From the NCBI GenBank assembly GCA_009786175.1, contig WQTQ01000239.1, positions 1 through 51,702 on the forward strand: a DNA stretch of 51,702 nucleotides, in the 5' to 3' direction. The stretch's first letter is position 1, and each line of letters starts with the position of its first letter. The notes under the pieces were generated by a model. The model had not been told where the DNA came from, made no database searches, and was given only the letters and a program-made list of their open reading frames with translations. Below are positions 26,184 to 48,546 of this stretch, piece after piece. A program made the position numbers and the translations under genes. The stretch is from Bacillota bacterium. Its GTDB lineage: Bacteria > Bacillota_A > Clostridia > Lachnospirales > WQUN01.

Positions 26184-26221
26184 TTGACAGCATCCAAATC
26201 GTAATATATAATTACATTTGG
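26184..26221 (+). promoter_or_regulatory. Consensus promoter with overlapping palindromic operator for the lipid-synthase cluster
   Basis: TTGACA (26184-26189), exactly 17 bp, then TATAAT (26207-26212) is a perfect sigma-A consensus. Overlapping the spacer and -10 is an inverted repeat, CCAAATCGTAAT (26194-26205) and ATTACATTTGG (26211-26221), one extra base in the left arm. Such a strong promoter with a palindrome on the -10 suggests repression. A partially similar motif (TAATTATAT with TTACA or CGTAAC) recurs twice at about 26308-26352. The leader to the chosen start codon is about 200 nt. No regulator gene is adjacent. Confidence 0.75.
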
Positions 26222-26422
26222 TTCGACACAAACTTACAATATACACATTGCAGAGTTACAGAATAGTCTGCGTAAATCAAAAAATAGGTAATCGTCAAAA
26301 ATTTATAATTATATCGTAACCAAATTTTAAAGATTGTAATTATATTTACATATATGGCGAAATGGTTTTACAGGTCAAAATTTCTGAAATTAAAACCTAC
26401 GAAAGGTCTGTGGTTAAGTAAT

Positions 26423-29400
26423 ATGACAATACCAATTGCAATCGTTGGAATGGGCGCAATATTGCCTGGCGCAATGGATTTAAGTGAATGTTGGAGTAAT
26501 ATTTTAGCAGCAAAAGACTGCATTGATGATATTCCAAGTCTCTATTGGGATATTGAAGACTTTTATGATCCAAACCCTTTAGCTCCTGATAAATCATACA
26601 GTTATAAGGCAGGGGCTATTGGTGAAGCAGAGTTTGACTCTATCGGTTTTGGAATTTCACCATTGGCAATGGAATCAATTTCTGTAGAACAGCTTTATGC
26701 CCTTGTTGTGGCCAGACAAGCTCTTTTAGATGCAGATATGATAGGCGCAAATGCGAGAAAATTTAATCGTGAAAAAACCGGAGTTATTTTAGCTGCAGGA
26801 ATTGGTAAAAACGCTTTTTCCCTTTCGCGCAGACAAGATATTCCGCGGACAAGAAAAATCCTTGAAAATTCAGGGGTACCTGCCGAACTTATCGAACGGA
26901 TACTTGAACGACTAAAAAATGTTGAAATTGAGTGGACCGAAGACAGCGAACCGGGTTATCTTGCGAATGTAACAGCCGGTAGAATTGCAAGCCGTTTCGA
27001 TTTTAACGGAACAAACTGTGCTGTGGACGCTGCATGTGCCTCAAGCTTAGCTGCTCTAAAATTTGCAGTCGGCGAGTTGTACAGCGGTGATTGTGATGTT
27101 GTTCTTACGGGGGGAGTTAACCTTGATTTAACTGCTTCCGCATTTATATCGTTTTGTAAAACGCCGGCAATCTCAAAAATTGGCATAAGCCGTCCTTTTG
27201 ACGCAGACGCAGACGGCATGATTCTTGGTGACGGCGTCGCAATGGTTGTACTTAAACGCCTAGAGGATGCAGAGAGAGATAACGATCGAATTTATGCGGT
27301 AATAAAGTCTGTAGGCTCATCGGGAGACGGCCGTGCAAAAAGTATATTTGCACCTACAATGGAGGGTCAATCAAAGGCTCTTATGCGTGCGTACGAGAAA
27401 ACAGATGTACATCCGTCTACTATAAGCTTAATTGAGGCCCACGGTACAAGCACTCATGTGGGTGACGGTTGCGAGTTGTCAACTTTAAAGCGTTTCTTTG
27501 AAGGCAGCGGTGCCGAGCAAAATGCCATTGCGATTGGAAGTATAAAAAGTCAAATAGGACACACACGACTGACAGCGGGAATGGCGGGGCTTATAAAAAC
27601 AGCATTATCCCTTTATCACAGAACTATTCCGCCTACCTTAAATGTGTCAACTCGCAGAGCCGACATGATCGAATCTGCTTTCTATACGACACCGGCAGCA
27701 AAACCGTGGACAACAAGTAAGAGATGTAATATTCGAAGAGCAGGAGTCAGTTCCTTTGGGTTCGGCGGAACAAATTTCCATACTGTTTTGGAGGAATACA
27801 AAGGAGATTCTAATAATTGGCGAAGGTTGCACAGGATACCTTCGGGCATATGCTTAGATGCCTCCGACAGCAATGAGTTAATAGCTGTATGCGAGAGTTG
27901 GATAGAATATCTTAATACAGAACCGGCAGCATATGATGTGCTTTTAGACAGCCAAAGAGATGTCAAAGAGATCTCCGGAGACAGGCCGCGTATAGGCTTT
28001 GTGTCCGGGAACGCAGATGAAGCTAAACATAAACTTCGTGTTTGCGCAGACATGCTTAAAAAGAGCGATACCCAAAATATAGAGGAAGCTCATCTTGAAG
28101 CTGAAGGCATATATTTTCGCACAAAAGGTATTGCAGAAGACGCTAAAGTAGTAACTTTGTTCCCGGGGCAAGGTTCGCAATATATAGGAATGATGGACGA
28201 GATTGCAAGAGATTATCCTGAAATGTCCGAGTTCCTTGAACTTTGCGGACATACACTGGAGTCACGCGGGCTTAGGCCAATTGCTGATATTTTATACAGC
28301 GGCGATTTGAAAATTTCACAGATGGAAGCTGAAGCGTCCTTAAAAGACACAAAATATACTCAGCCTGCTCTTGCCGCTGTATGTGGCGGTATGTACGAAA
28401 TTTTAAGAAACCGAGGGTATACGGAAGACTTCATTATTGGACATAGCTTTGGCGAGATTGCGGGGCTTTGGGCGAGTGGCGTTATCGATAAAGAAGCATT
28501 TATAGAGGTAGCCTGTGCCCGCGGACATGCCATGTCAGAAGTATTATGTGAAACCGGCATGATTGCTGTTTCAGGAGACATAGATTCTTGCAGAAAATGG
28601 ATTCAAGACTATGATAACTTATATATTGCAAATGAAAATAGCGATTTGCAAACCGTGGTATCCGGCAATATGGAACAAATTAAAAAGTTTGCCGCCAAGC
28701 TTAGCGAAATGAATGTTGTCAATACAATACTTAAAGTATCCCAGGCGTTTCATTCTCCATATATGACTGATGCGAATAAAGCATTTTGCAAAACAATTGA
28801 CAACACAAAGTTTTCTGCTCTAAAAAAGAAACTTTACAATGGCGCGTCAAGCAAATTCTATAAACAGCAGGCAGCTTTAGTGAAAGAAACACTCGCTAAG
28901 CAAATGGAACTGACCGTGCATTTTGCCGGATGCATCCGTGATGCCTATAAAAAAGGGGCCCGAGTTTTTATTGAAATAGGCCCGGGTAAGGTTTTAACAA
29001 ATTTGACAAACAAAATCCTTGAAGGCAAAGAATATTATGCTCTGGCCGTTAACAGGCTTGGCAGGCGTAAAAATGTGCATGTTCAACTTGAAGAGACCCT
29101 TGTTCACCTCAGGGTGTTGGGTGTTAAGGTTGGCGGTGATTTATACCGCATGAGTACATCGGAAGTATATAAAAGTGAAAAGCCGAAATCATCCTATGTA
29201 ATCAACCCAATGTTGTATATGACACCTAAAAAAAGAGAAGTTGCAGAGGCGGCCATTGAAGTAATAGACCCTTTATACGATTTTGTGCCGGTTCACTCTG
29301 CTGAAAGTAATGAAAACATAAGCGTACTCAAAGAGGAAGCCAGCCCCTATTACGAAGTTACTACTTTAGGGAATTTTTATGATCTGGGAGGAGAGTTAGA

Positions 29401-30136
29401 AATGCGAAAAGATGCAATGGAGTCAATTTTTGACTTACAAAGCTTAAACACGAAAGCTTTAGAGAATTTCTTAACTTCACAAGAAAATCAAATTAAAGTA
29501 TTCAAGGAATTGTTTACAGGTTCAGCCGGAAGTCCTGCCTCAAGCGATGCCTTAAAGTTGATAGGTGCTTTCCAAAATAACAGTCTTAGAGCGTTTGAGG
29601 CCTATATGCATGGGCAGCAAGGAATCATGGGCGGCATTGCCACAATGCCCAAAGAAAATGCTGTCTACAGACAAATAGAGCCGCAACCCATCGAATACAA
29701 TGAATATTCCTCTAATGATGCCGTAACTCATGTAGAAAAGGATATCCATAAAGACATGCCTTTAGTACGCAGAGCTGAGAGCATTGTGTTAAATAATACA
29801 GTTTCTGAGCCAACACCTGTATCTGTGCAAGCTATAGAAAATGTTGCGGCTTTGGAAAGGCCACCGGTTCAAAACAGTGCACCTGCCCTGACAGGTTTCG
29901 ATCCTGTGGCGATGATTATCAGGATAATAAGCGAAAAAAGTGGCTATCCCGAAGAGTTGTTGGATGCCGACATGAATATAGAGTCCGATTTGGGAATTGA
30001 CTCTATAAAAAAGATTGAAGTTTTCTCGGAATTAAACAAGCAAATTCCCGGCGGGCTTGACAATGACGATGTAGAAGCCATTGCAATGCTGCAAACTATA
30101 AGCGAAATCGGTGATTATATACTAAAAAAAAAGTAA
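26423..30136 (+). CDS. PfaA-like synthase, KS-AT-ACP (single ACP)
   Basis: This 1237-residue protein (from ATG 26423; the frame is open to 26354 but homology starts at PIAIVGMGAILPG) is an iterative secondary-lipid/polyketide synthase subunit. The ketosynthase (about 3-455) has active-site C205 in DAACASS, EAHGTST and the GHT segment. The acyltransferase (about 575-885) has FPGQGSQ and GHSFG with S675. A long linker with a stretch low in motifs (about 950-1150) follows, then one acyl carrier domain with LGIDSIK and phosphopantetheine Ser1194. The GIDSIK form is typical of PUFA synthases, but those carry 3-9 tandem ACPs and a KR in the same chain. Here the KR is the next gene. It is the first gene after the consensus promoter. 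A phosphopantetheinyl transferase is not in the window. Confidence 0.9.
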   Translation: MTIPIAIVGMGAILPGAMDLSECWSNILAAKDCIDDIPSLYWDIEDFYDPNPLAPDKSYSYKAGAIGEAEFDSIGFGISPLAMESISVEQLYALVVARQALLDADMIGANARKFNREKTGVILAAGIGKNAFSLSRRQDIPRTRKILENSGVPAELIERILERLKNVEIEWTEDSEPGYLANVTAGRIASRFDFNGTNCAVDAACASSLAALKFAVGELYSGDCDVVLTGGVNLDLTASAFISFCKTPAISKIGISRPFDADADGMILGDGVAMVVLKRLEDAERDNDRIYAVIKSVGSSGDGRAKSIFAPTMEGQSKALMRAYEKTDVHPSTISLIEAHGTSTHVGDGCELSTLKRFFEGSGAEQNAIAIGSIKSQIGHTRLTAGMAGLIKTALSLYHRTIPPTLNVSTRRADMIESAFYTTPAAKPWTTSKRCNIRRAGVSSFGFGGTNFHTVLEEYKGDSNNWRRLHRIPSGICLDASDSNELIAVCESWIEYLNTEPAAYDVLLDSQRDVKEISGDRPRIGFVSGNADEAKHKLRVCADMLKKSDTQNIEEAHLEAEGIYFRTKGIAEDAKVVTLFPGQGSQYIGMMDEIARDYPEMSEFLELCGHTLESRGLRPIADILYSGDLKISQMEAEASLKDTKYTQPALAAVCGGMYEILRNRGYTEDFIIGHSFGEIAGLWASGVIDKEAFIEVACARGHAMSEVLCETGMIAVSGDIDSCRKWIQDYDNLYIANENSDLQTVVSGNMEQIKKFAAKLSEMNVVNTILKVSQAFHSPYMTDANKAFCKTIDNTKFSALKKKLYNGASSKFYKQQAALVKETLAKQMELTVHFAGCIRDAYKKGARVFIEIGPGKVLTNLTNKILEGKEYYALAVNRLGRRKNVHVQLEETLVHLRVLGVKVGGDLYRMSTSEVYKSEKPKSSYVINPMLYMTPKKREVAEAAIEVIDPLYDFVPVHSAESNENISVLKEEASPYYEVTTLGNFYDLGGELEMRKDAMESIFDLQSLNTKALENFLTSQENQIKVFKELFTGSAGSPASSDALKLIGAFQNNSLRAFEAYMHGQQGIMGGIATMPKENAVYRQIEPQPIEYNEYSSNDAVTHVEKDIHKDMPLVRRAESIVLNNTVSEPTPVSVQAIENVAALERPPVQNSAPALTGFDPVAMIIRIISEKSGYPEELLDADMNIESDLGIDSIKKIEVFSELNKQIPGGLDNDDVEAIAMLQTISEIGDYILKKK

Positions 30137-30147
30137 TTTCGCCTAAA

Positions 30148-31791
30148 ATGCAAACAGAGCGAATGATTAAGCGTTATGAAGTCGCTTTAAATAGCGTTCC
30201 TGTGGAAACCAATCCAATAAAACCTGTCGGCAATGGAGTGGTTATAGTAAATTTGGATGCCGATGGAGTAGCTCAATTTGTTGCACAGAAATTAAAAAAT
30301 AGAGGTTATCAAGTGGTTTTTTCGGTTATGCCTGAAATAAAACCGAAAGACACAGGAGACTTTAGCTCGTATTCAATTTCATGCGATAACGAAAATACCA
30401 TTGAGGAACTCTTTAATCAGGTTACAGAAAAATTTGACCAACCTTTAGCAGGGTTTATACACATTGCTTCAAAAGAAAACTCTAAAGATAACGACATATT
30501 TTCTAAACGCGAAAGAAATATTTTAAAAACAATATTTTTATGCGCAAAATACTTTGTACGTACCCGGCAAAAAGAGAACAGTTTTTTGGTAAGTGCTGTC
30601 CGTATGGATGGCAATCTTGGGCTTGAAACAAGCAGCAACATTATTCAAGGAGGACTATTTGGCTTACACAAGTCCCTGGCAATAGAAAGCGAAGGCAGCT
30701 TCTTAAGCAAAGCTATAGACCTTGCAATAGAACTGCCTCCGGACAAAGCTGCCGATTATCTTATTGAAGAAATTTTTGACACCGGTTATGAAAAACAAGA
30801 GGTCGGCAGGACTATAGACGGTAAACGCAATACACCGACATTAATTGAAAGATATGTTAATACCGATGTACGCGACACTGCGTTAACACAAAATGATGTA
30901 CTGCTTGTAACCGGCGGGGGCAGAGGCATTACGGCTAACTGCATTATTAATCTTGCAAAGGAATGCGGCTGCGGATTTGTTTTACTTGGGCGTACAAGCT
31001 TGAATCAGGACGTCAGTTGGGCCGAAGGCATACGAGATAAAGTTACTTTGAGAAAAATGGCAATGGACAGGTTGAGAAAAAATAATCCCAAAAGTGTGCC
31101 AAAGCCTTCAGAGATAGACAAGATGGTAAACAGCGTACTTCATCACGCGGATATAATGGATACGATTAACGCGATTAAATCTGCAGGCGGAAGAGTCCTT
31201 TATGAGGCCTGTGATGTACGTGACACAAAGCTGCTTAAGCAAGTTATAGAAAAAAGCGAGCAAGAACTGGGAAGTATTACGGGGCTTATACATGGCGCAG
31301 GTAATATTGAAGATAAAAAAATTCAACGCAAAACAGTTGACGATTTTGATAATGTGTTTGGCTCAAAAATAGAAGGGCTTGAAACTTGTTTAAACTGTCT
31401 TGATACAGGCAAGCTTAAATACTTGGTTTTATTCAGTTCAATTGCGGGATACTTTGGAAATGCCGGACAAAGCGATTATGCCATGGCCAATGAAGTTATG
31501 AATAAGTTTGCGTATTGGCTTAAACGTAAGCAGCCTTTCTGTAAAACAGTATCTATTAACTGGGGATTATGGGATGGAGGAAGCATGGTAAGCGACTCTA
31601 TCCGAAGTGCGATTAAAGACACCGAACTTCGTTTGATTCCGTTAGAAGTCGGCAGCGAATACTTTGTAGAGCAGTTTTTATACGAGAAGGACTCTACTTC
31701 TTGTCAGATTATTATTAACTGCAGTAATCAATTAATAAGACCCAAAATAGATATTCCAGGTATGCAAGCTTTAAGCAGTCATAAGAAATAA
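30148..31791 (+). CDS. Stand-alone ketoreductase of PfaA type
   Basis: The 547 residues match a PKS/PUFA-type ketoreductase: an N-terminal structural half with a degenerate Rossmann fold (VVIVNLDADGVAQFVAQKL, GFIHIAS) and a catalytic half with VTGGGRGIT, LLGRT, catalytic S431 in LFSSIAGYFGNAGQ and Y444/N448 in DYAMAN. It would reduce the beta-ketoacyl-ACP made by the upstream KS. In PfaA this domain follows the ACPs on the same polypeptide; here it begins 11 bp after the KS-AT-ACP stop. No clear RBS is seen before the ATG at 30148, so translational coupling is likely; an ATG at 30163 is another option. Confidence 0.9.
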   Translation: MQTERMIKRYEVALNSVPVETNPIKPVGNGVVIVNLDADGVAQFVAQKLKNRGYQVVFSVMPEIKPKDTGDFSSYSISCDNENTIEELFNQVTEKFDQPLAGFIHIASKENSKDNDIFSKRERNILKTIFLCAKYFVRTRQKENSFLVSAVRMDGNLGLETSSNIIQGGLFGLHKSLAIESEGSFLSKAIDLAIELPPDKAADYLIEEIFDTGYEKQEVGRTIDGKRNTPTLIERYVNTDVRDTALTQNDVLLVTGGGRGITANCIINLAKECGCGFVLLGRTSLNQDVSWAEGIRDKVTLRKMAMDRLRKNNPKSVPKPSEIDKMVNSVLHHADIMDTINAIKSAGGRVLYEACDVRDTKLLKQVIEKSEQELGSITGLIHGAGNIEDKKIQRKTVDDFDNVFGSKIEGLETCLNCLDTGKLKYLVLFSSIAGYFGNAGQSDYAMANEVMNKFAYWLKRKQPFCKTVSINWGLWDGGSMVSDSIRSAIKDTELRLIPLEVGSEYFVEQFLYEKDSTSCQIIINCSNQLIRPKIDIPGMQALSSHKK

Positions 31792-31800
31792 GGAGGACAC

Positions 31801-34800
31801 GTGGACAATATTGCAATTATCGGCATAGGATGCCTTTTTCCTGATTATGCTGACAAGGATAAATTTTGGAACACTATTATAAGTGGAGGCAACTTCTTGT
31901 ATCGCGATCAATTTTTAGAGACCGATATAGAAAGAAGCGGCCTACCCTATTCAGGTTCAGATTTTTTTAAAGGACGTCTTTCAGATGCAGAACTAGAAGA
32001 ACTTACTCCTTTCGGTGAACTATTCAAATGGTGCGCTTACGTTACGGACGAAGCTATGAAAGATGCAGGTTATTTCCATGCTAAAGAAAAATTTGGACGC
32101 ACAGGCATGGTGGTCGGAAGCGTAGCACAAACCATTAGCGATCAAATTGATGTTATGCATCCTTTTTTCACGAAAACTGTAGCAAAGGAAGTAAATGCAA
32201 TTTTAGGAGGAGAGAAGTTTTCTCATTGCTATTCTCCGAAAAACGAAAATTTAAGAATCGAAAGTCTTTTGGCAGATACCGAACCTGTTAGATACATTGC
32301 TCAGAAACGCGGCTTTGGCGGGCCCGTAATTATGTTTAATGCGGCTTGCGCATCCCCGCTATATGCAATTAAGCTGGCGTCTTTTTACCTTAACTCCGGG
32401 GAAGCCGATATTATGATTGCCGGATCTCACTGTTCCAACGAAACAGTTGCAGGTATATCCGGTCTCTTTGACACATTCGGTATATTGTGCGGGGTTGGCG
32501 AAAGCCTTCCTATGGACAAAAACTCAAAGGGCCTGATTACCGGTTCCGGTGCAGGTGTTTTTGTGCTTAAACGCCTTGCAGATGCGGAACGTGACGGTGA
32601 CAATATTTTGGCGGTTGTCGAAAGCATTGGCTGCTCCAATGATGGGGGAACCGGCGGCGGTATGTTGAGCCCGTCTGCTATAGGCCAAATCGAAGCATAT
32701 GAAGCAGCATATACAGGCGGCCTTTCACTTGACATTGATTATATCGAATGCCATGCAACAGGAACGACAGCAGGCGACAAGACAGAAATAGAGTCTATCG
32801 AACGCTTTTTTGGCTATGACTACAGTCTTGGCGGGTCATCTTCAGGCTCGCGCCCTATGCTGGGTGCATTGAAGGGCAGTACCGGGCATTTTTTCACCGC
32901 TACAGCTTGCGCATCAATTGTAAAAGTTATAATGGCAATGCAACATGAAATAATTCCGGCGACTATTGGCGTAAATGACCCGATATGTGAAGGGATTCTA
33001 TTAGAAAACACCCCTTGGAAATCCGGAGAAAAGCTGAGAAGAGCGGGCATTAACGCCTTTGGTTTAGGCGGAATCAACGCACACCTTGTTATTAGCGAAT
33101 ATAGGGGACAAAATCTGCCTGCACCACAGGCCCCTGTCTCTGTAAATCAGAACGATAATCACGCCGGGACAGATTTGGCAATTACCGGAATGGGTCTTCA
33201 CATAGGCAAATTTAAATCTGTAGAAGAGTTTTTACAAGGGCTTTTATCTTCAGATACTGCGTTTGCACAAGCCGACGACGACAGGTTCAGAGGGCTAAAT
33301 AAAGACAAGGCCTACATGGATGCTCTCGGTCTTTTAGAAATGCCAAAAGGTTCATATTTAAACAATCTTAACTTTGATACAATGCGCTTTAAAATGCCCA
33401 TAGTAGGCGACCCGTATTTTCTGCGAAGAGACATGTTAATGCTTGAAGTGGCAGCAGAAGCCCTTGACGATGCAGGCGTTCAAGCGGGCTCATCACCGCG
33501 TACCGCCGTAATTGTTCACTCTGCACCGGACTATACGGATCAGCTCTTTATGGCCAGTGTCGAGCTTAAAGACAGCATACTCGAGAGCCTTAAAGAAACT
33601 TGCCCCGAACTAACTGATGCTCAAAGACAAGAAGTTGTACGAATACTAAAAGAAAACGAAGCCACAAGAGAAAGTGCTGATAATGTACCCGGTATGATTA
33701 CAAATATCAGAGGATGCCGAATATCAGCTCATTGGGGATTCAGTGCCCCGTCTATTACAATTTTTGAAAGAGAAATATCAATACTGCGTTGTTTAGAGCT
33801 TGCCAGATTCTTCATTTCAGAAGGAATCGCCGATCAGGTAGTTGTTGGGGTGTCATCGTTCTCGGGCGAACTTGAGCATATTTACACTCAAAAAGAGTTA
33901 GGTGCTATGGATCTTATGTTAGAACATGGCATTGCAGAGGGCGCAGCTGCTCTTGTTCTTAAGTCCAATGAGGCCGCAACTAAATGCAAGGATAGAGTCT
34001 ATGCAGTTATCAACGGGCTTGGGATTTCAGGTGTATCTCAGGATACTAAAGCTAATGTGGAAACTGCTATTGGAAAAGCTATAGAAGAAGCCAATATAGG
34101 CAAGGGCGATGTCCATGCCGTAGAAATACCTAAAAGCTATGACTTGGAACAAAGAAGTTTAGTTGAACAGTTTTGCTATAAAAAATATAAAAAGTATTTG
34201 GACAGCAAATCTTTCAATGTGTTGGACATAGAAAGCTATTTGGGGTTTGGTTTCAGTTTATCTACAGCCGCGTCCATTATTCGCCATGCACTTCAGCTGC
34301 ATTTATCTCGTGTGTTTATGCCTAATTCAAAAGAAAACCTAAAAACAACAGGTAAAAAACCCGCATCTCTTGTTACAAGCTACGCCAAAGAAAAGCTTTT
34401 TGGCTGTGTCGTTATGACGCAAAGCAGCAGCAACGAACACAGGGATAGAAAACTTGTTTCACAATTTATACCTATTCCCATTCCCTTTGATTCTGTCAGT
34501 GAGCTTGATGAGCGATTACAAGTATTAGAAGCGGCGTTAGAAAAAAAAGGATTAAAACAGCTTCATGCACAATCTTGGCTTGAATACCGTAATGCATGTA
34601 CTGCGAAGGGCAATGGCATGAGCCGGGGAGCAGTTCTTCTGTGCGATTCAAAAGAAACATTGCGTGATGAGATTAGTAAGTTGCGGCGTTGCGTTTCAGA
34701 TAACACTTCTTTCGTCGGTTCCGATCTTGAAATCGACTCATTTGGTTTTGTAGAAGACGAAAACATGGATGAGACGCTTAATATTTTTGCCGAGCAGTTT

Positions 34801-35637: not shown

Positions 35638-35654
35638 AAAGGACTGATTAAGAA

Positions 35655-38136: not shown

Positions 38137-40898
38137 CGGAATGCATTGATACAATGCTGGAAGACAATGGTTGTGATTGCGATTTGGCACTGTTGCCTCT
38201 TGCATGTAATAGTCCTGATGATTTGTGTCTTAAGCTTATTGAGCTGCAAAAAAAGCTTAAATCACCGAACGGGATTAAAAACATTTGGAATGACGCATGG
38301 AAAGAGTATAAAGCTACTCATATGTTATCTTCATATACTGCAGTTTTGGCGTTCGACTCAAAAGATGGTCTTGATAAGGAGATTGTATCCTTACTTTCTG
38401 CAGTGGGAAATTTAGACGGCAGCAAAAACTTTAACTCTGACTTCCGTTATGAAAGTACACAGGGTTCACACTTTACTGCCGCACCTTATGGTAAAGATGC
38501 AAAAGTAGTCTATATGAATCCGCCGGGCAGTGCGCAGTATCTGTTACTTTTCTTTGAAATGCTTGCACTTTTCCCAAGTTACCGAAATAGATATGCAAAT
38601 TTCCTTAACAGCAAGTTCTTTAGCGAGATAGATAAAATGGATTTTCGATTTGGAAGATTTGCTATAGAGATGTGCATGATTGGTATTGTAAATACAATTG
38701 CACGCGAACGTCTTGGTTTATCACCTCATATTTTGACCGGCGCAAGCCTTGGGGAAATTGCTTCATTATTCTCTTATGACTGCATTGATCACAATCTTGA
38801 AGGTGGGCATGATCAATCGACACTTAAGCTTCTAAAAGCTTTCAATGAAGTATACACATATCGCAGCTATGATATGACTATAAGGTATATAAAAGCTCCG
38901 CTTACAGCGATAAGGGAAGCTCTTATCGGATCACATTGGGAGAATGACATTTATATCCTTCTTGAAGCTTCGCCTGGGGGTGCTTTTATAAGTGGACGCC
39001 CAGAGAAAATTCAGCTTATGCTTGAAGAAACTGGTTTTATTAATTGGGTACTAGATCTTAATTCTCATGTACACACCCCAATACTTGACCAATTTTATGA
39101 ATATTTGTATAACACCGCAATTGAATGCAAAAACACCTTTAAGCCCGATCTTGATGTACAGATTTACAGTGCGTACTATAGAAAGCCGGTTGAAAATACC
39201 GTTGAAGCCATAGCTGAGTATGCTGCTTCTGTACTAATTAAGCCCTGTTATTTTTATGGCCTTTTGGAATTGGTTTATGAAAGGGGCAGCCGCGTATTTG
39301 TGGATATGGGTACGGGCGGAAGCTGTTTAGCATGGGCACAAGAGACATTTGCGGACAGAGATACCCTTTGCTTTTCAATATATCCGTCATTTGTAAATTC
39401 CAAAACAAGCATACTGCTGACTTCTGCAAAGCTCATATCTAACCGCGTTAATATTGATTTGGATGCCCTGGTAAACTCTTTTAAACATTCATTTATGGAA
39501 AGCTGTGAAGATTTTAACAGTGTTGCAACAGTTGTTGAACCTTTAGAAAAATCTCAAGATGCGGCATTAACCCCAAAGCCCGTTACCAGCGATAATGTAC
39601 AAAGTAATGTTCAAAGAACAGTTTTTGGAGTACCGAAGTACAGGCACAAGGGTTTCTATAATAATGCGTATGCATACAGCTTATATCTGGAAAACGAAAA
39701 GCTCTTACTTGCAAAAATAAGGCAAATGCAGCAAAAATCTAAAGCTTATGTATGGGATTATCATGACATATTAGAAATTACAGGCGGTGCGCCTTCGAAG
39801 ATTTGGGGCAAGCGTTACAGCAGTCTTGACTCATTAACAAAACGCGCAAGGATGCCATTGCCCCCATTCATGTTTGTTACCAGGATTATCAATATTGATG
39901 CTGAGTTTGGGGAATTCAAGCCCTCATCCATAGAAATAGAGCTTGACATAACGGATGACTGTATCATGATGATGTCTCCAAGCACAATTTCATATGTCCT
40001 TTTAACAGAATCATCACATGTTGCGATTTTCTTGTTGGCATACATCGGTATAGATTTACTCTATGATGGAGAAGTAAGTTATCGAATATTAAACACTCAA
40101 GAAGCCCTGCATAGCGACTTCCCTATTAAAGGGGACACAATACGCGCTAAATTAGAGTTTGTTGAGTTTACAAAAAATGGTTCAACTACTCTTATAAAAT
40201 CAAAATTCATTTGTCATAAAAAAGATGAACTTTTGATGACCATGGATTTAATGGGCGGGTTTTTTACAGAAGATGAGCTTCGAAACACAAAGGGAATCTT
40301 ACCTTCTATAAAGCCGAATCTAAAAAAGGTGAAGCCTTTATTAACTAAAATGAAGCCGCTTAAGAATCTTAAATTAGATTTGGATGCGTTTTATAACGGG
40401 AAATACGGTGCAAAAATATATCCGACCCGTACATCGGCTGAGGCAGAGTACCTATATGTACATCCGAAAATTAGGATGCTTGATAGAGTTACGACAGTTG
40501 ATTTTGAAGGCGGTGACTACGGATTGGGCCTGATTGTTGCCGAAAAGGATGTTAGTGAGAATCATTGGTCTTTTGACGTACACTTTAAAAATGACCCTGT
40601 GTTTCCGGGCAGCTTGCTTGCAGAGGCCGGAAATCATATTCAATTGGTGTTTGCGTTGAATGCAGGCTATATCGGTGACGGCAACTATATTTTGAGATGT
40701 AAAAATGGGCTTCTTATTAAGTCAGTATTTAGGGGACAAGTACGACGTGTTGAGTCCGTACTGCGCTTCGAACAGCATTTTAAAGAAATCACGGAGACTG
40801 ATACAGGGGTTATTATAGTATCGGACAGTAATGTGTTTTGGCAAGGAAGTCATATATCCAGAACAGAAAACCTTTCTTTAGTGATTGAACAACGATAA
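38130..40898 (+). CDS. Acyltransferase plus two hot-dog dehydratase domains (PfaB AT fused to PfaC DH-DH)
   Basis: The protein has 922 residues. After a pre-AT linker (1-125) comes an acyltransferase (about 125-440) with VVYMNPPGSAQY and G204-A-S206-L-G (in place of GHSxG), then two FabA-like hot-dog domains. The first (about 560-705) shows RARMPLPPFMFV and ESSHVAIFLLAYIGID, as in PfaC DH1. The second (about 760-915) has ENHWSFDVHFKNDPVFPGS with H818 and D822, an intact dehydratase site. It would transfer acyl groups and dehydrate or isomerise hydroxyacyl-ACP. The start is the GTG at 38130 or the adjacent TTG, inside the end of the upstream KS-like gene; no good RBS is seen, so expression depends on coupling or on frameshifting. 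Confidence 0.85.
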   Translation: MLTECIDTMLEDNGCDCDLALLPLACNSPDDLCLKLIELQKKLKSPNGIKNIWNDAWKEYKATHMLSSYTAVLAFDSKDGLDKEIVSLLSAVGNLDGSKNFNSDFRYESTQGSHFTAAPYGKDAKVVYMNPPGSAQYLLLFFEMLALFPSYRNRYANFLNSKFFSEIDKMDFRFGRFAIEMCMIGIVNTIARERLGLSPHILTGASLGEIASLFSYDCIDHNLEGGHDQSTLKLLKAFNEVYTYRSYDMTIRYIKAPLTAIREALIGSHWENDIYILLEASPGGAFISGRPEKIQLMLEETGFINWVLDLNSHVHTPILDQFYEYLYNTAIECKNTFKPDLDVQIYSAYYRKPVENTVEAIAEYAASVLIKPCYFYGLLELVYERGSRVFVDMGTGGSCLAWAQETFADRDTLCFSIYPSFVNSKTSILLTSAKLISNRVNIDLDALVNSFKHSFMESCEDFNSVATVVEPLEKSQDAALTPKPVTSDNVQSNVQRTVFGVPKYRHKGFYNNAYAYSLYLENEKLLLAKIRQMQQKSKAYVWDYHDILEITGGAPSKIWGKRYSSLDSLTKRARMPLPPFMFVTRIINIDAEFGEFKPSSIEIELDITDDCIMMMSPSTISYVLLTESSHVAIFLLAYIGIDLLYDGEVSYRILNTQEALHSDFPIKGDTIRAKLEFVEFTKNGSTTLIKSKFICHKKDELLMTMDLMGGFFTEDELRNTKGILPSIKPNLKKVKPLLTKMKPLKNLKLDLDAFYNGKYGAKIYPTRTSAEAEYLYVHPKIRMLDRVTTVDFEGGDYGLGLIVAEKDVSENHWSFDVHFKNDPVFPGSLLAEAGNHIQLVFALNAGYIGDGNYILRCKNGLLIKSVFRGQVRRVESVLRFEQHFKEITETDTGVIIVSDSNVFWQGSHISRTENLSLVIEQR

Positions 40899-40927
40899 GC
40901 TATTTTTTAGTAGGGAGTATGATAAAA

Positions 40928-42463
40928 TTGAAAAAAATTGTTTTTATTCATCCGAGAAGTAAGTTACAAATTGAGTATTGGTCTTCCGAGGTGTTAAATT
41001 TACTAATGAACCGTGCCACATCTTCGTCACTAAAATTGGCACCGATGATTTTTGCAGCTATAACACCACCCATTTACGAATTTATCTATGTGGATGAAGA
41101 AATTGAAGAGATCGATTTTCAGATGGATGCAGATTTAGTTGCCATTACAGCCATGACGGGGCAGATCAATCGTGCTTATGAGATAGCCGATCAATTTCGC
41201 AGTGCGAAAATCCCTGTTGTAATTGGTGGGATTCATGCATCAGTACTTCCGGATGAAGTGGGCCAGCATTGTGATGTAGTTATGATTGGTGAAGGTGAAA
41301 ATATATGGCCGGCAATGCTTGAAGACTTTGAACATGGAACACTTAAGAAAGTTTATGCAGCCAAAGACTACCCCAAAGTGGAGTATCTCCCAAGCCCCAA
41401 AATTGATGTTGTTAAACATGAACATTATTTAATGTTCCCCTTGCAAGCCACTCGCGGATGTCCTTATGAATGTGAATTTTGTTCGATTAAACACTCCGCA
41501 GGGCATCATTACCGAATGAAGCCAATAGAGCAGGTTATTGCCGAAATTAAGGCGTATGAAAAATATAATAAAAAGACCTTTGGGGTCTATAAAAAGAGTT
41601 ATGTTCTGGTTGATGATAATCTGTACGTTAACCGGGAATATGCCAAGAAGCTGTTTACTGCTATGAGTGAGCTTGATATTTCTTGGATGGGCCAAGGAAC
41701 TTTAGATACTGCATTTGATGAAGAAATACTTACCCTGATGGCGAAAAGTGGTTGTAAGACATATGCTATTGGTTTTGAATCGTTCTCGGATGAAACACTC
41801 AGAGAAGTTAATAAGCCGAAAGTCCACAATATAGATAACTATGATACTGCGATAAAAAATTTGATCCGTCATGGGATTATGCCGGCCGGATTTTTAATTT
41901 ATGGATTTGATAATGACGATGTTAATATTTTTCAAAAAACTATTGACATTATCCAAGAAAAGCATCTTATACAGGCTCATTTTAATCTTTTAACGCCATA
42001 TCCCGGCACGAAGCTTTACGATCGAATTAATGGCGAAGGAAGAATTATCGACCAAAACTGGGATAACTATATTAATATGAAAACTGTATTCGAACCCAAA
42101 CAAATGAGTCCTGCTACTCTTGAAGCGGGATTAAACTGGACCGTAAAAAAGTTTGCTACTTTTGATACGATGGTTAAGCTGTTAGGCTATTTTTGGAGTC
42201 AAGGGCCGTGGCCAAATAACAAAACCCTTAGCCTGCGGGAGCGTATGATTTTGATTATGATGGGTTTAAAGCTGCGAAAATACAGTAAGGGAATGTGTAA
42301 ATTTTTGTTCTGGGCGGCACGTCAGAAAAATGCGTGCAGTTTTGGCACTATTCTTGCGGGAATTGTTGTTTTCGAGGTAGTGGAAAAAGCCAGAGGACAC
42401 CTGGAGCGGCTAATAGCGGTAGAAGGAAACGATATTCCGGCATACATGAAGGCCAAGGATTAA
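40928..42463 (+). CDS. B12-binding-domain radical SAM enzyme 2
   Basis: I start at TTG 40928, giving (M)KKIVFIHPR like its paralogs and a 10-nt spacing from GGGAG (40913-40917); an ATG at 40919 is too close to that RBS. The 511-residue product has the B12-type domain (ADLVAITAMTGQ, VVIGGIHASVLPDE, MIGEGENIWPAML) and the radical SAM motif RGCPYECEFC. The C-terminal region includes the SQGPWPNNK segment shared with copies 3 and 5, with which it groups by eye. As for the other copies, the DxHxxG motif is absent and no second Fe-S motif of SPASM type is seen. Its substrate is presumed to be the synthase product. Confidence 0.9.
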   Translation: MKKIVFIHPRSKLQIEYWSSEVLNLLMNRATSSSLKLAPMIFAAITPPIYEFIYVDEEIEEIDFQMDADLVAITAMTGQINRAYEIADQFRSAKIPVVIGGIHASVLPDEVGQHCDVVMIGEGENIWPAMLEDFEHGTLKKVYAAKDYPKVEYLPSPKIDVVKHEHYLMFPLQATRGCPYECEFCSIKHSAGHHYRMKPIEQVIAEIKAYEKYNKKTFGVYKKSYVLVDDNLYVNREYAKKLFTAMSELDISWMGQGTLDTAFDEEILTLMAKSGCKTYAIGFESFSDETLREVNKPKVHNIDNYDTAIKNLIRHGIMPAGFLIYGFDNDDVNIFQKTIDIIQEKHLIQAHFNLLTPYPGTKLYDRINGEGRIIDQNWDNYINMKTVFEPKQMSPATLEAGLNWTVKKFATFDTMVKLLGYFWSQGPWPNNKTLSLRERMILIMMGLKLRKYSKGMCKFLFWAARQKNACSFGTILAGIVVFEVVEKARGHLERLIAVEGNDIPAYMKAKD

Positions 42464-42512
42464 CGAAAGAGCAATGGGCCTAAAATATGAACAGATTGCA
42501 GAGGTGAAAGAG

Positions 42513-44024
42513 TTGAAAAAAATAATTTTTATTAACCCCGCAGTGCCTAAATTAGAGCGCGGTGTTTTTGCATCCAATGCGTTAGGCGTGTTGATGGATC
42601 ACCCTATATCATCAACACTTAAATTATCCGCTATGGTTTTTGCTGAAATAACTCCCTCAACTTATGAATTTATTTATATTGATGAGGAGATTGAGAAAAT
42701 TGATTTCGAAATGGATGCAGACCTTGTGGCAATAACGGCCATGACCGTTCAAGCTAGTAGGGCATACCAAATTTCAGAGCGTTTTCGCAGCCGTGGAATA
42801 CCTGTAGTTATCGGAGGGATTCATGCTTCTGTATTACCTGAAGAGGTTAAGGAACATTGCGACGCTGTAGCAATAGGCGAAGGGGAAAACATATGGCCTG
42901 AAATGCTTAAAGATTTTGAACAGGACATGCTGAAAGAATTCTACAATGCAAAAGATTATCCACCGGTAGATAAGCTTACAAGCCCCAGAGTTGATGTTGT
43001 CAAACATGACTATTATTTACTTCTCCCGTTGCAAGCAACAAGAGGGTGTCCGTATGACTGCGAGTTTTGCTCTATTAAATTTTCTGCTGGGCACAAGTAT
43101 AGAATGAAACCGGTTGAACAGGTAGTCGCTGAGATCAAAGAGTATGAGAAGTACAACAAAAAGAGACTTGGCGGATTTAAAAAAGGTTATGTATTCGTTG
43201 ATGATAACCTTTATGTAAACCGTGAATATGTCAAAAAATTATTCACCGCCATGAATGGCTTGGGTATCTCATGGACAGGGCAAGGAACCATTAATATGGC
43301 CTTTGATGACGAAATACTGACACTTATGGCGGCCAGTGGGTGCAAGACTTACAGTATTGGCTTTGAGTCCATCTCGGAAGAGTCTTTAAAGGAAGCAAAT
43401 AAGCCAAAAATTAATAAAACAAATGATTACGCTGCTGCAATTGGAAACCTGATTCGCCATGGCATAATTCCTGCCGGGTATTTTATCTATGGTTTTGATG
43501 GTGATGATAAGGGAGTTTTTCAAAAAACTGTTGACTTTGCATATAAGAGTCATCTGCTTCAGCCTTCTTTTAATGTTTTAACACCATACCCGGGTACAAG
43601 GCTTTACGACAGGCTTAAAGCAGAAGGACGAATTTTTGATAACAATTGGGAACATTACAATACATCTAAATGCGTATTTACACCGAAACATATAGAGCCG
43701 CCTATGCTTGATGACGGGGCAATGTGGTCATCAAAACAGCTTGCCGACTTTGAAGTAATTAAGGCACAGCTTAGCTATTTTTGGAGTCAAGGACCATGGC
43801 CAACAATTAAAAGGCTTACTTTATTGGAGAGGGCTGCTTTGTTTGGACTTGCTATGAAATTACGAAAACATGGTAACAAATTTTACAAGTTTTTAATGTG
43901 GGCAGCACGCCAAAAAAATGCACAGGACTTTAGCACGATTATTGCCGCCCTTGTAATACACGAAGCAGTAATTGGAGCTAAGGGTGGGGAATCCTTCGAA
44001 AGCTACGTAAAATCAGGGGAGTGA
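42513..44024 (+). CDS. B12-binding-domain radical SAM enzyme 3
   Basis: The start TTG 42513 is preceded by GAGGTGA (42501-42507) and yields (M)KKIIFINPAVPK, matching paralogs; an upstream in-frame ATG at 42474 lies outside the homology. The 503 residues contain the B12-type domain (VVIGGIHASVLPEEV, AIGEGENIWPEML), radical SAM RGCPYDCEFC, then SIGFESISEE, LTPYPGT and SQGPWP. It is closest by eye to copies 2 and 5 (SAGHKYRMKP and NKPKINKTN segments). Tandem placement directly after copy 2 suggests duplication and divergence. Confidence 0.9.
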   Translation: MKKIIFINPAVPKLERGVFASNALGVLMDHPISSTLKLSAMVFAEITPSTYEFIYIDEEIEKIDFEMDADLVAITAMTVQASRAYQISERFRSRGIPVVIGGIHASVLPEEVKEHCDAVAIGEGENIWPEMLKDFEQDMLKEFYNAKDYPPVDKLTSPRVDVVKHDYYLLLPLQATRGCPYDCEFCSIKFSAGHKYRMKPVEQVVAEIKEYEKYNKKRLGGFKKGYVFVDDNLYVNREYVKKLFTAMNGLGISWTGQGTINMAFDDEILTLMAASGCKTYSIGFESISEESLKEANKPKINKTNDYAAAIGNLIRHGIIPAGYFIYGFDGDDKGVFQKTVDFAYKSHLLQPSFNVLTPYPGTRLYDRLKAEGRIFDNNWEHYNTSKCVFTPKHIEPPMLDDGAMWSSKQLADFEVIKAQLSYFWSQGPWPTIKRLTLLERAALFGLAMKLRKHGNKFYKFLMWAARQKNAQDFSTIIAALVIHEAVIGAKGGESFESYVKSGE

Positions 44025-44095
44025 TTGCAAGTTATCACAGAACATAATCCAGAGACACCTATGATAAAAACTAAATTTTACAGGAGGAACTACCA

Positions 44096-45607
44096 ATGAG
44101 TCGTATTGTGTTTATTAATCCTTCGGTTGACAAGTATGCCGAAATAAAATTGTGGGAATCAGAATTGATAGACTATATTGCCGGAGAGTCAAGGACAGTT
44201 ATGCCAAGGCTGGCACCTATGCTTTTGGCTGCATTAACTCCCGAAAAACATAGCTTCGTTTACATCGATGAAGAAATTGAAGATATCGATTTTGACAAAA
44301 TAGAAGCAGACTTAGTTGCTATAGGAACTATGACAATTCAGGCTCCGAGGGCTTATGAAATTGCTGCCCAGTGCCGCAAACGGGGCATGAAAGTTGTAAT
44401 GGGAGGGATTCATGTTTCTGTTTTGCCGGATGAAGCTGCTTTACATGCCGATTCGATTTGCATTGGTGAAGGAGAAAATGTTTGGCCTGTAATGATTGCT
44501 GATTTTGAGGCCGGTAAATTAAAGCCCAGATACAATGCAAAAGATTTTCCGCCTGTAACCACCATGATTAGTCCTCGTATTGACATAATTAAACACAGCC
44601 ACTACTCGATGTATCCTATTATGGCAACTAAGGGGTGTCCTAACGAGTGTGATTTTTGCTCAATTAAATACTCGAGCGGCAACAAGATTCGCAGGAAGCC
44701 TGTCGAGCAAGTAATGCGGGAAATTGAGTCATTTGAAAAGTATAACAACGGGGCTATGAAAAAAGGCTATCAATTTGTTGATGATAACCTTTACATTAAC
44801 CGGGAGTACACAAAAACGCTGTTTAGAGAGCTTAAAAAACAGAATATTTTCTGGCAAGGGCAAGGAACTCTTAATACAGCCAGTGATGATGAAGTTGTAA
44901 AACTTATGGCCGAAAGCGGCTGTCGCAGTTACAGTATCGGCTTTGAGTCGATTTCCGAGGCAAGCTTAAAAGAAGCAAATAAGACCAGCTCGAATCGCGT
45001 TGCAGATTATGAAGGAGCTATAAAAAAGTTAATCCAATATGGCATTACACCGGCAGGCTTTTTTATTTACGGTTTTGACAGTGACGATAAACACGTGTTT
45101 GAAGAAACGTTGAATTATATAAAGAAAATGCACATATTGAACCCGTATTTCAGCGTTTTGACCCCATATCCGGGTACCGGGGTATACGAAAAGGTCAAAG
45201 ACCGTATTTTTGATACTGATTGGTCTCATTATGGTGCAATTTATTCTGTATACACCCCAATTAATATGACTTCGGAGGAACTGGTGTCGGGTTCATATTG
45301 GTCTTCTCATGAAGCTGCAAGTATGGATACGATTAAACAACAGCTTGAATACTTTTGGCTGCAAGGGCCGTGGGATACAAACCCAAGGCTTACTTTCAAG
45401 GATCGTTTATTATTGATTGCCATGGGGCTTAAGCTATGGAAGAGCAAAAAATTTAGAGAGTATACAAAATTCCTATTTTGGGCAGCAGTACATAAGCGTG
45501 CTGTAGACCCATATATGATCATTGCCTCGATTGCTTTTAACCATATGACAAGAAAATTCTTTAGCAAAGGGCGAAACCCTGCCGTTAGTAAACAATCCAC
45601 AAACTAA
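44096..45607 (+). CDS. B12-binding-domain radical SAM enzyme 4
   Basis: An AGGAGG precedes the ATG at 44096. The 503 residues show the B12-type domain (ADLVAIGTMTIQ, VVMGGIHVSVLPDEA, CIGEGENVWPVM) and radical SAM KGCPNECDFC. The C-terminal half (NPYFSVLTPYPGT, KDRIFDTDWSHYG, GSYWSSHEAA) resembles copy 1 more than its immediate neighbours, so the five copies fall into a 1/4 and a 2/3/5 subgroup. A 71-bp spacer separates it from copy 3, the largest gap inside the cluster, with no terminator seen. Confidence 0.9.
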   Translation: MSRIVFINPSVDKYAEIKLWESELIDYIAGESRTVMPRLAPMLLAALTPEKHSFVYIDEEIEDIDFDKIEADLVAIGTMTIQAPRAYEIAAQCRKRGMKVVMGGIHVSVLPDEAALHADSICIGEGENVWPVMIADFEAGKLKPRYNAKDFPPVTTMISPRIDIIKHSHYSMYPIMATKGCPNECDFCSIKYSSGNKIRRKPVEQVMREIESFEKYNNGAMKKGYQFVDDNLYINREYTKTLFRELKKQNIFWQGQGTLNTASDDEVVKLMAESGCRSYSIGFESISEASLKEANKTSSNRVADYEGAIKKLIQYGITPAGFFIYGFDSDDKHVFEETLNYIKKMHILNPYFSVLTPYPGTGVYEKVKDRIFDTDWSHYGAIYSVYTPINMTSEELVSGSYWSSHEAASMDTIKQQLEYFWLQGPWDTNPRLTFKDRLLLIAMGLKLWKSKKFREYTKFLFWAAVHKRAVDPYMIIASIAFNHMTRKFFSKGRNPAVSKQSTN

Positions 45608-45620
45608 GGGAGTTGTAGAC

Positions 45621-46985
45621 GTGAGAAGTAAAAATTCTATAATCACAGCCAAAACCTTGGGGTCCGATTCGTTCAAAAAAGACTACAAGACAGAATATGC
45701 ATACTATGCCGGTTCAATGGCCAATGGGATTTCATCGGCAAAAATGGCTATTGCCTTGGGAAAAGCAGGATACATGTGCGGTTACGGTGCCGGTGGTTTA
45801 ACACTTCATGAGGTAGAGCAGGCAATTGACAAAATCAAGCAGGCACTTCCGGACGGTCCTTGTCTTATTAACTTGCTGCATTCACAAAACGATTTGGCGC
45901 GGGAAGAAGCAATGGTTACGCTTTTTTTAGAAAAATCTGTTAAAGCAGTCGAGGCTTCGGCATTTATTGAAATTAGCCCGGCACTTATTCGTTATCGATT
46001 AGCAGGGTTAAAAAAATGCGACAAGTTAGGTGTTTACTCAGAAAATCGAATTATTGCAAAAGTTTCCCGCGAAGAAGTAGCACGGAAGTTTATGAGCCCG
46101 CCAAGCCCGGCAGTTGTAGCGGAGCTGCTTGCAAAAGGTATAATTACAGCCCAACAGGCAGAATGGGCAAATCAAATTCCTGTTGCGGATGATGTTACAG
46201 CAGAGGCTGACTCGGGCGGACATACAGATGGCCAGCCTTTTATTTCTTTACTGCCGTTGATGATTAGTGTACGCGATAAAATGCAACAGCAATTCGGTTA
46301 TAGTCAAAGAATCCGTATAGGTGCCGCCGGTGGGATCAGCACTGCCATTGCAGCGGTTGGGGCATTTCAAATGGGTGCCGATTATGTTGTGACAGGCTCG
46401 GTAAATCAGGCGTGTATTGAAGCCGGAACATCTGATTACGTTAAAAAAATGTTGGCTAATACACAGATGTCTGACGTTGTTTTGGCCCCGTCTGCAGATA
46501 TGTTCGAATCAGGCTCGAAAGTTCAGGTAATTAAAAAGGGAACTATGTTCCCCATGAATGCCCAAAAATTGTATGATCTTTATGTCCGGCACGATAACAT
46601 TCATGATCTTCCCGAGAAAGACAGAAAAGCTGTTGAAACACGAATATTCCGCCACGATTTTGCTACAGTATGGGGGTTTGTAGAAGAATATTTTTCAAAA
46701 GCAGACCCAAGGCTGCTTGACCGTGCGCAATCGAACCCCAAATTAAAGATGGCACTTACTTTCCGCTGGTATCTTGGGAACTCTTCGCGTTGGGCTATTA
46801 AAGGCGACGAAGCACGAAAAATGGATATGCAAATTTGGTGCGGTAAATCGATGGGAGCCTTTAACCGATGGGTAGAAAATACCGAACTTGAACAATGGGA
46901 CAACCGGACTGTAGTCAAAGTTGCGGATAAAATAATGAATGAAGCGGCGACTATTATAATGAAGAATTACACCAAGCTTTCGTAA
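45621..46985 (+). CDS. pfaD: PfaD-family FMN enoyl reductase
   Basis: The 454 residues match PfaD, the trans-acting FMN enoyl reductase of PUFA and related synthases: MANGISSAKMAIALGKAGYM, GAGGLTL, a nitronate-monooxygenase-type barrel with SGGHTDGQP, IGAAGGIST and GADYVVTGSVNQ, and the PfaD-specific C-terminal helical region (FRWYLGNSSRWA). It would reduce enoyl-ACP in selected cycles, controlling which double bonds remain. The GTG start follows AAGGGAG. Its presence among the radical SAM genes ties these to the synthase. Confidence 0.93.
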   Translation: MRSKNSIITAKTLGSDSFKKDYKTEYAYYAGSMANGISSAKMAIALGKAGYMCGYGAGGLTLHEVEQAIDKIKQALPDGPCLINLLHSQNDLAREEAMVTLFLEKSVKAVEASAFIEISPALIRYRLAGLKKCDKLGVYSENRIIAKVSREEVARKFMSPPSPAVVAELLAKGIITAQQAEWANQIPVADDVTAEADSGGHTDGQPFISLLPLMISVRDKMQQQFGYSQRIRIGAAGGISTAIAAVGAFQMGADYVVTGSVNQACIEAGTSDYVKKMLANTQMSDVVLAPSADMFESGSKVQVIKKGTMFPMNAQKLYDLYVRHDNIHDLPEKDRKAVETRIFRHDFATVWGFVEEYFSKADPRLLDRAQSNPKLKMALTFRWYLGNSSRWAIKGDEARKMDMQIWCGKSMGAFNRWVENTELEQWDNRTVVKVADKIMNEAATIIMKNYTKLS

Positions 46986-47010
46986 ATCCATATGAGAAGG
47001 GGCAAAGAAC

Positions 47011-48546
47011 TTGAAAAAAATTCTTTTTATCAATCCCAAAACAATTGACTTAACGGTTGGGATTTTTTCATCCAATATGGTGCGTATGTCCAAAAAAAAA
47101 CGACTGTCAATGCCTAATTTGGCACCAATGATTTTTGCCGCATTAACACCGCCGAGTTATGAGTTTACTTTCATAGACGATGACTATAAAGACGTAGATT
47201 TAAACATGAATGCCGATTTAGTTGCCATATCTGCCATGACGATGCAAGTAAACCGTGCATATGAAATTGCCGATCATTTTAGAAAAAAGGGAGTAACTGT
47301 CGTTATTGGCGGCATTCATGCATCTGTGTTACCTGATGAAACCAGTCAGCACTGTGACGCAACAATGATTGGCCAAGGTGAAAACACTTGGCTTGAGATG
47401 CTGAAAGATTTTGAGCAGGGGACACTTAAAAAATTTTATGATACTAAAGACTATCCTAATATCGATTATCTAATAAGCCCTAAAGTTGACATAATTAACT
47501 TCGATCATTACCTAATGTTCCCTATTCAAGCGACACGCGGATGTCCGCACGACTGTGATTTTTGTTCGATCAAGCATACTGCAGGTCATGTTTATCGAAT
47601 GAAACCGGTTTCACAAGTTATTGCCGAAATTAAAGAATATGAAAAATATAATAAAAGGAGTGTCGGCGGATATAAGAAGCACTATTTTTTTGTTGATGAA
47701 AATATTTATGTAAACCGCAAGTATGTTAAAGAATTGTTATCGGCAATGATTGAACTCAAAATATCATGGATGGCGCAAGGGACTGTAGATGCCGCCTATG
47801 ATGAAGAAATGCTTGAGTTAATGGCGAGAAGCGGATGCCGTCAATACGCAATTGGGCTTGAATCCATTTCCGATGAAACACTTGCAGAAGCCAATAAGCC
47901 TAAAATCAACAAAACTCAGTCATATGGCGTTGCCATTAAGAATTTACTTAGACATGGGATTATTCCGGCCGGCTATTTGATATATGGTTTTGATAATGAT
48001 GACCATAATGTTTTTAAAAGAACTGTTGATTTCGCTATTAATAATCATTTGATACAGCCCTATTTTTCTACTTTAACACCATATCCCGGCACAAGGCTTT
48101 ATAATAGGATGAAAGCTGAAAATCGAATTTTTGATAAGAACTGGGACCATTACAACTCTTTGACTCCTGTGCATCACCCAAGGCAATTCAGCCCTGTCTT
48201 GCTTGAAGAAGGGATTGTTTGGTCGTCAAAACAAATAGCAAATTTTGATGTGGTAAAGAAGCAATTTGATTATTTTTGGAGTCATGGGCCGTGGCCGCAA
48301 TTAAAAACTCTTACATTCAAAGAACGTTTACTGTTAGTTTTAATGGCCATAAAGCTAAGAAAACACAATAAAAAATATTGTGATTTTCTGCTTTGGGCGG
48401 CGCGTAATAAAAAGACATGCGACTTTGGTTCCATTTTTGCAGCACTTTTTCTGCATGAGGCCGTTATGCAGTCTGACAAGGGGGAAGCTTTTGAAGAATT
48501 AATACTTGAAGCAGAAAAAAATTCAGTTAACGATAAACCAAGTTAA
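47011..48546 (+). CDS. B12-binding-domain radical SAM enzyme 5
   Basis: The TTG start with AGAAGGGG upstream gives (M)KKILFINPK. The 511-residue protein has the B12-type domain (ADLVAISAMTMQ, VVIGGIHASVLPDET, MIGQGENTWLEML), radical SAM RGCPHDCDFC, then AIGLESISDE, LTPYPGT and SHGPWPQ. It groups with copies 2 and 3. GEGEN of the other copies is GQGEN here, and the segment GFESIS is GLESIS. It is the last gene of the cluster and is followed by a bidirectional terminator. Confidence 0.9.
   Translation: MKKILFINPKTIDLTVGIFSSNMVRMSKKKRLSMPNLAPMIFAALTPPSYEFTFIDDDYKDVDLNMNADLVAISAMTMQVNRAYEIADHFRKKGVTVVIGGIHASVLPDETSQHCDATMIGQGENTWLEMLKDFEQGTLKKFYDTKDYPNIDYLISPKVDIINFDHYLMFPIQATRGCPHDCDFCSIKHTAGHVYRMKPVSQVIAEIKEYEKYNKRSVGGYKKHYFFVDENIYVNRKYVKELLSAMIELKISWMAQGTVDAAYDEEMLELMARSGCRQYAIGLESISDETLAEANKPKINKTQSYGVAIKNLLRHGIIPAGYLIYGFDNDDHNVFKRTVDFAINNHLIQPYFSTLTPYPGTRLYNRMKAENRIFDKNWDHYNSLTPVHHPRQFSPVLLEEGIVWSSKQIANFDVVKKQFDYFWSHGPWPQLKTLTFKERLLLVLMAIKLRKHNKKYCDFLLWAARNKKTCDFGSIFAALFLHEAVMQSDKGEAFEELILEAEKNSVNDKPS

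Follow-up and report, generated by a model that had tools for sequence, protein, structure and literature searches.

The window analyzed here, a stretch of 51,702 nucleotides (positions 1 to 51,702 of contig WQTQ01000239.1, assembly GCA_009786175.1) from a Bacillota bacterium of the class Clostridia, contains a run of plus-strand genes that encode the parts of a PfaABCD-type lipid synthase interleaved with five radical S-adenosylmethionine (rSAM) enzymes that possess a B12-binding domain. A single pathway with radical tailoring is likely when the three readings in which the rSAM enzymes modify the synthase product are taken together. The preferred one among these, in which each of the five rSAMs methylates a different carbon of the chain made by the split synthase, so that a multiply branched lipid results, is tentative, with somewhat less than an even chance of being correct. 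The principal evidence comes from other genomes, in which relatives of these rSAMs occur together with iterative synthases of two architectures.

The synthase and the rSAM paralogs

The run consists of eleven plus-strand open reading frames (ORFs) in positions 26354-48546, with a spacing of 9-71 bp and one 7-base overlap, as given in the preliminary description (Table 1). The consensus promoter reported ahead of the run is there as well, a candidate promoter by sequence with an exact match to the sigma-70-type consensus; the window contains two exact promoter-consensus sites compared with 0.05 expected. The other site (TTGACA-16-TATAAT, 12214-12241) was not assigned to any gene. The first ATG of g1 has, as judged by eye, no clear ribosome site, and the true start may be Met24 because the ketosynthase (KS) match begins at residue 27.

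Domains were assigned from Pfam and NCBIfam profile scans of the window proteins. The PfaA protein, with its KS, acyltransferase (AT), acyl carrier protein (ACP) and ketoreductase (KR) domains, is present but divided over g1 and g2, which reach 850 and 328 bits against TIGR02813, in both cases short of the 1010 required of a full-length protein; Pfam detects a single ACP in g1, not the tandem ACPs of Pfa-type synthases. Residues 2-834 of g3 match the solved structure 6riw (molecule name ORF10; E 2.9e-100), a KS-CLF (chain length factor) of a marine docosahexaenoic acid synthase, and the following dehydratase-like stretch (DH') is weak (FabA-like, 22.2 bits vs a cut-off of 23). The FabA-like dehydratase (DH) of g6 scores 92 bits against the same cut-off, and g6 also matches solved FabA-type dehydratases. 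The AT of g6 is below the cut-off (21 bits vs 32.7), with a GxSxG-type serine motif present; one of the four scanned g6 relatives has this domain above the cut-off (P0017, 40 bits), and the match of g6 to the PfaB chain 9ry8 is weak (E 0.0034). The g10 product is PfaD (TIGR02814, 615 bits vs 449; PfaD structure 6lkc, E 3.7e-145).

The catalytic motifs include the KS Cys-His-His in g1 and g3, the AT serine in g1 and g6 and the ACP serine in g1, with the KS active-site Cys absent from the second KS (the CLF half) of g3 and from g5. The domain set proposed earlier (KS-AT-ACP, KR, KS-CLF-DH', KS-like, AT-DH-DH and PfaD) stands, except for the second DH of g6, for which there is no Pfam match even at E 5; two stretches of g6 match the DH chain 2cf2. 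The KS-like assignment of g5 was borne out by a KS/CLF-type domain that aligns to the CLF of g3 at E 6e-26; the structural model of g5 is of low confidence (pLDDT 57.7), with ketosynthase-fold chains among its best 50 fold matches. No match to the phosphopantetheinyl transferase (PPTase) PfaE was found among the 35 window proteins scanned, short ORFs being left out, and the gene may be located elsewhere in the genome.

The eleven ORFs probably represent ten genes with one frame break. A search of 5.8 billion proteins, with 7997 candidates scored, yielded seven g6 relatives outside the window. Six of these encode g5 and g6 as a single ORF (P0013-P0017 and P0019), and P0018 is a fragment, so that the window copy is probably interrupted by a frame break at about 38.06-38.11 kb, within 38040-38240. 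This break may be natural or an assembly error. The earlier statement that there are eleven genes is thus correct for ORFs and probably one too many for genes.

All five rSAM paralogs described among the synthase genes contain both the Radical_SAM and the B12-binding domains above the Pfam cut-offs, with 38.8-47.3 bits vs 32.1 for PF02310, the N-terminal Rossmann domain. Every one of the 52 sequences aligned, the five from the window included, has the three cluster Cys of the CX3CX2C motif. The search with the g8 protein gave 3528 matches, the best 120 of which were retained as the rSAM list; within it, the close group comprises 106 outside proteins, down to P0126, and its members of at least 440 amino acids score at least 460 bits, compared with 356 for the next protein of such size. 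Among characterized or named families, the ladderane-associated TIGR04072 (84-99 bits vs a cut-off of 360), HpnJ (TIGR03471, 89-96 vs 577.6) and BchE (TIGR02026, 80-94 vs 481) were rejected for all five paralogs. The plasmid search produced 10 records with identity of at most 35.5%, and the viral contig search 24 loci with only 20-31% identity.

Table 1. Features of the gene run in the window
Feature	Coordinates	Strand	Assignment	Basis
promoter	26184..26212	+	candidate sigma-70-type consensus, exact TTGACA-17-TATAAT	sequence match
g1	26354..30136	+	KS-AT-ACP, N-terminal part of PfaA, one ACP	Pfam; TIGR02813 850 bits; motifs
g2	30148..31791	+	KR, C-terminal part of PfaA	Pfam KR 128 bits; TIGR02813 positions 1755-2265
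g3	31801..35637	+	KS-CLF-DH', PfaC-like	6riw match; FabA-like stretch 22.2 bits
g4	35655..37109	+	B12-domain rSAM	Pfam; tree; clade column
g5	37138..38136	+	Cys-less KS/CLF-like domain, 5' part of gene fused in relatives	relatives; alignment; model
g6	38130..40898	+	AT and FabA-like DH, 3' part of g5/g6 gene	Pfam; relatives
g7	40919..42463	+	B12-domain rSAM	Pfam; tree
g8	42474..44024	+	B12-domain rSAM	Pfam; tree; modelled protein, pLDDT 92.8
g9	44096..45607	+	B12-domain rSAM	Pfam; tree
g10	45621..46985	+	PfaD enoyl reductase	TIGR02814; 6lkc
g11	47011..48546	+	B12-domain rSAM	Pfam; tree

Co-occurrence of synthase and rSAM genes in other genomes

The outside PfaD genes nearest to g10 reside on contigs that also encode one to four rSAM paralogs. 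The protein database gives no gene context, and location on the same contig was inferred here and below from identical contig sizes in bp. Of the 120 listed PfaD rows, eight were paired in this manner with members of the close group of rSAMs, and the window's own contig accounts for one of these; a chance control, in which jittered sizes were compared with the best 36 of the 120 rows, gave a mean of 0.12 and a maximum of 3 pairings. All five outside PfaD genes that have >70% identity and a contig of 10 kb or more were paired with close-group rSAM contigs, and five of the seven g6 relatives with two to four rSAM genes each.

In a quick tree of 79 rows (70 of the 106 outside close relatives, those with a recorded contig size and at least 440 amino acids, together with the five window proteins and four outgroup rows), g4 (16 rows), g9 (13 rows) and g7/g8/g11 (14 rows) belong to separate, well-supported clades, each of which spans several contigs. 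Conversely, single contigs, named here by their size in bp, contribute to different clades. Contig 46040 is represented in the g4 and g7 clades and in the wider g7/g8/g11 group; contig 36512 contributes to the g9 clade as well as to the g7/g8/g11 group; and contig 34784 has three members in the g4 clade and one in the g11 clade. Because the paralog clades cut across clusters, we infer that the duplications predate the divergence of these clusters, with different lineages having expanded different paralogs. In the g4 clade, an extra Cys immediately follows the third cluster Cys in all 16 sequences, and Met replaces Gln at position 270 (g8 numbering); only three clade-signature columns were found among 63 rows, which provide no residue-level key to paralog specificity.

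A sister branch of the rSAMs is associated with a second synthase architecture. Among the at least 80 loci listed in a genome scan with the rSAM alignment, only L001, in genome G001, and L002, in G002, belong to the close subfamily, although this list may lack further close relatives; by the record titles, these genomes come from Clostridiales Family XIII and Propionibacteriaceae, respectively. In G053, the rSAM gene is followed, on one strand, by genes for an ER-KS-AT-ACP-KR protein (ER, enoyl reductase; 2304 amino acids) and a KS-AT-PPTase protein. In G057, the KS-AT-PPTase gene adjoins an rSAM gene on one contig and the pair of both synthase genes is on another; G002 has the synthase pair and the rSAM on the same contig, and in G001 one contig carries the pair and a second carries two rSAM genes. 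The preliminary description named rSAM genes occurring apart from synthase genes as the observation that would speak against a single pathway; four of the four checkable genomes have an iterative synthase, one that is built differently from that of the window. The loci that show this two-gene synthase in the company of the sister rSAM branch are L086, L087, L088, L089, L122, L123 and L124, and the two copies of the KS-AT-PPTase gene in G057 are 71% identical. KS or KR matches were seen near B12-rSAM genes at 10 of the at least 80 loci (L002, L004, L005, L008, L016, L021, L032, L038, L063 and L071), nine of which are distant rSAM relatives, mostly from other phyla, including one titled Candidatus Scalindua.

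Within the family of G001, the rSAM is found in three of 148 genomes (E 1e-90), and a full-length match to the 2304-amino-acid synthase is found in the same three; three other genomes of this family have partial synthase matches, none better than 1.6e-71. With G053, the source of the query, set aside, the overlap concerns two genomes among 147; by simple counting, which ignores kinship, chance would produce it once in 10731. Searches for the window-type PfaD were negative in G001, G002 and two further genomes, in 148 family-level genomes (E 1e-60) and in 391 class-level (E 1e-130) and 394 order-level (E 1e-100) genomes, all without a positive control, so that these negatives show little.

Three sets of counts show a weak link in the reverse direction, from synthase to rSAM. 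The ER part of the two-gene synthase type is present in 15 of the 197 genomes in the G002 family (E 1e-40), compared with only one for the rSAM (E 1e-90), so that 14 of the 15 synthase genomes lack the rSAM at this cut-off. Among PfaD genes whose contigs measure 10 kb or more, one of 15 at 57-69% identity and none of 39 at 51-56% identity were paired with a listed rSAM relative, although contigs outside the rSAM list may carry more distant rSAMs. Such frequent occurrence of synthases without these rSAMs is what would be expected of two unrelated pathways that are neighbors on one strand by chance, but the rSAM genes are interleaved with the synthase genes and recur in different bacterial groups alongside synthases of two types, and we consider chance adjacency highly improbable. 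The rSAM never occurs without a synthase in the four checkable genomes, whereas the synthase often occurs without the rSAM, a distribution that suggests an optional tailoring role for the rSAMs. The previously proposed single pathway, in which an iteratively built chain undergoes radical modification, is therefore well supported by comparative genomics in the direction from rSAM to synthase, the reverse link being weak.

Predicted chemistry

Under the preferred C-methylation reading, g1-g11 would likely be co-transcribed, and the synthase would assemble an acyl chain with its only ACP as the carrier. The rSAM enzymes would bind cobalamin and act on this chain, either ACP-bound or released, each paralog having its own position; a SAM-derived radical would remove a hydrogen, and methylcobalamin would donate the methyl group. 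The fold matches of the g8 model agree with a B12-binding domain joined to a radical SAM domain, and the predicted fold together with the cobalamin-site residues leans weakly toward C-methylation at several carbons.

The main rival holds that, in the same pathway, the rSAMs form C-C bonds, either rings within the chain or a coupling of two chains, as in Grs, Tes, Mss or the proposed ladderane synthesis. There are precedents in rSAM lipid couplers, namely, Tes and Grs (PMC8941075) and Mss (PMC11868695), and in the proposal (PMC2649909) of rSAM action on a polyunsaturated chain on the way to ladderanes; a polyene-capable synthase that contains a FabA-like DH would provide the double bonds for cyclization. 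However, all five rSAMs are far from the TIGR04072 cut-off, the subfamily also accompanies a synthase without a FabA-like DH by Pfam, and Tes is not among the best 50 fold matches of the g8 model, which does not rule likeness to Tes out. On balance, C-C bond formation appears possible but rather unlikely.

Other radical chemistry in the same pathway, such as dehydration, desaturation, a hydroxylation-like reaction, methylthiolation, ring contraction or head-group modification, is unlikely: a set of five paralogs serving the same type of step on a single chain is more easily read as position-specific decoration, and the B12-binding domain is present in all five.

A more far-reaching reading, on the doubtful side although not far-fetched, is that these rSAMs are a dedicated tailoring family that has been mixed between the two iterative-synthase architectures across distant anaerobes and constitutes a radical 'branching code', with each paralog responsible for one carbon and the product set by how many and which paralogs are present. 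Should this be true, a previously unseen class of multiply modified bacterial lipids would exist. Branched, ringed or cross-linked bacterial lipids serve as environmental markers, many of them without a known maker. The coupling of a PUFA-type (polyunsaturated fatty acid) synthase with five radical enzymes of the B12 type would make lipid branching or cyclization in anaerobes accessible to genetics, and the paralog series would amount to a natural experiment on how radical reactions at unactivated carbons are directed to particular positions.

The island, its flanks and related systems

The eleven cluster genes have a lower GC content at third codon positions (0.34-0.39) than the 20 flanking genes (0.39-0.54), which suggests that the cluster was acquired by transfer; its patchy distribution fits. 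The same difference, together with the broken g5/g6 gene that is intact in six relatives, could be taken to indicate a decaying island, with the pathway of this strain inactivated by the break. The remaining nine frames are open, the catalytic motifs examined are intact and a single break may come from an assembly error, so that decay seems very improbable.

The flanks hold a housekeeping run, YicC-RemA-like-Gmk-RpoZ-PriA-Def-Fmt. Convergent with the cluster, on the minus strand (48655-51416), is a FecCD/BtuCDF-like ATP-binding cassette (ABC) importer that matched the BtuC, BtuF and BtuD models below the cut-offs and, judging by its sequence, could be a corrinoid or iron importer beside a B12-type cluster. 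At the Rfam gathering threshold there was no match anywhere in the window and, therefore, no riboswitch link for this transporter. A three-gene run on the minus strand (2301-6374) encodes an FAD-binding protein, a short-chain dehydrogenase/reductase (SDR) and an old-yellow-enzyme-like oxidoreductase. Only one short array of tandem repeats was found.

Compared with known Pfa-type (secondary lipid) clusters, the window has KS-AT-ACP, KR, KS-CLF, FabA-like DH and PfaD together with the candidate AT of g6, and differs in the fusion of KS'-AT to DH in its relatives, in the lack of a PPTase among the proteins scanned and in the five rSAM genes within the run. Shulse and Allen describe 20 Pfa-like cluster types (A-T), some with split pfaA or fused pfaBC (PMC3098273). 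The dismembered state of the synthase noted in the preliminary description is real, but splitting as such is not new, given that one of these types combines split pfaA with fused pfaBC; unlike Type A, with its 4-6 ACPs, the window synthase has a single one, and 'radical SAM' is absent from the text of that paper as far as it was available (PMC3098273). In the open-licence full-text literature, no paper was found that links a PUFA-type synthase to rSAM tailoring, and in the only one retrieved with both PfaD/PUFA synthase and radical SAM, the terms appear in unrelated places.

The rSAMs resemble the cobalamin-dependent C-methylases TokK, CysS, TsrM and MgmA in their predicted B12-binding plus radical SAM fold, and the TokK and CysS structures contain pantetheinylated substrates; unlike in these enzymes, with which structural alignments show 12-22% identity, the proposed substrate is a long acyl chain. 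Tes, Grs and Mss are not known to sit in iterative-synthase operons. The likeness to these three lies in radical chemistry on unactivated lipid carbons (PMC8941075, PMC11868695). Rattray and colleagues (PMC2649909) proposed that rSAMs act in clusters with type II synthase genes; the window shares with these proposed ladderane clusters the combination of anaerobic lipid genes with several rSAM genes and differs from them in the type of synthase and in the low TIGR04072 scores. As far as the open-licence literature reaches, the window thus represents a new variant that joins a known kind of synthase to a set of rSAM tailoring enzymes.

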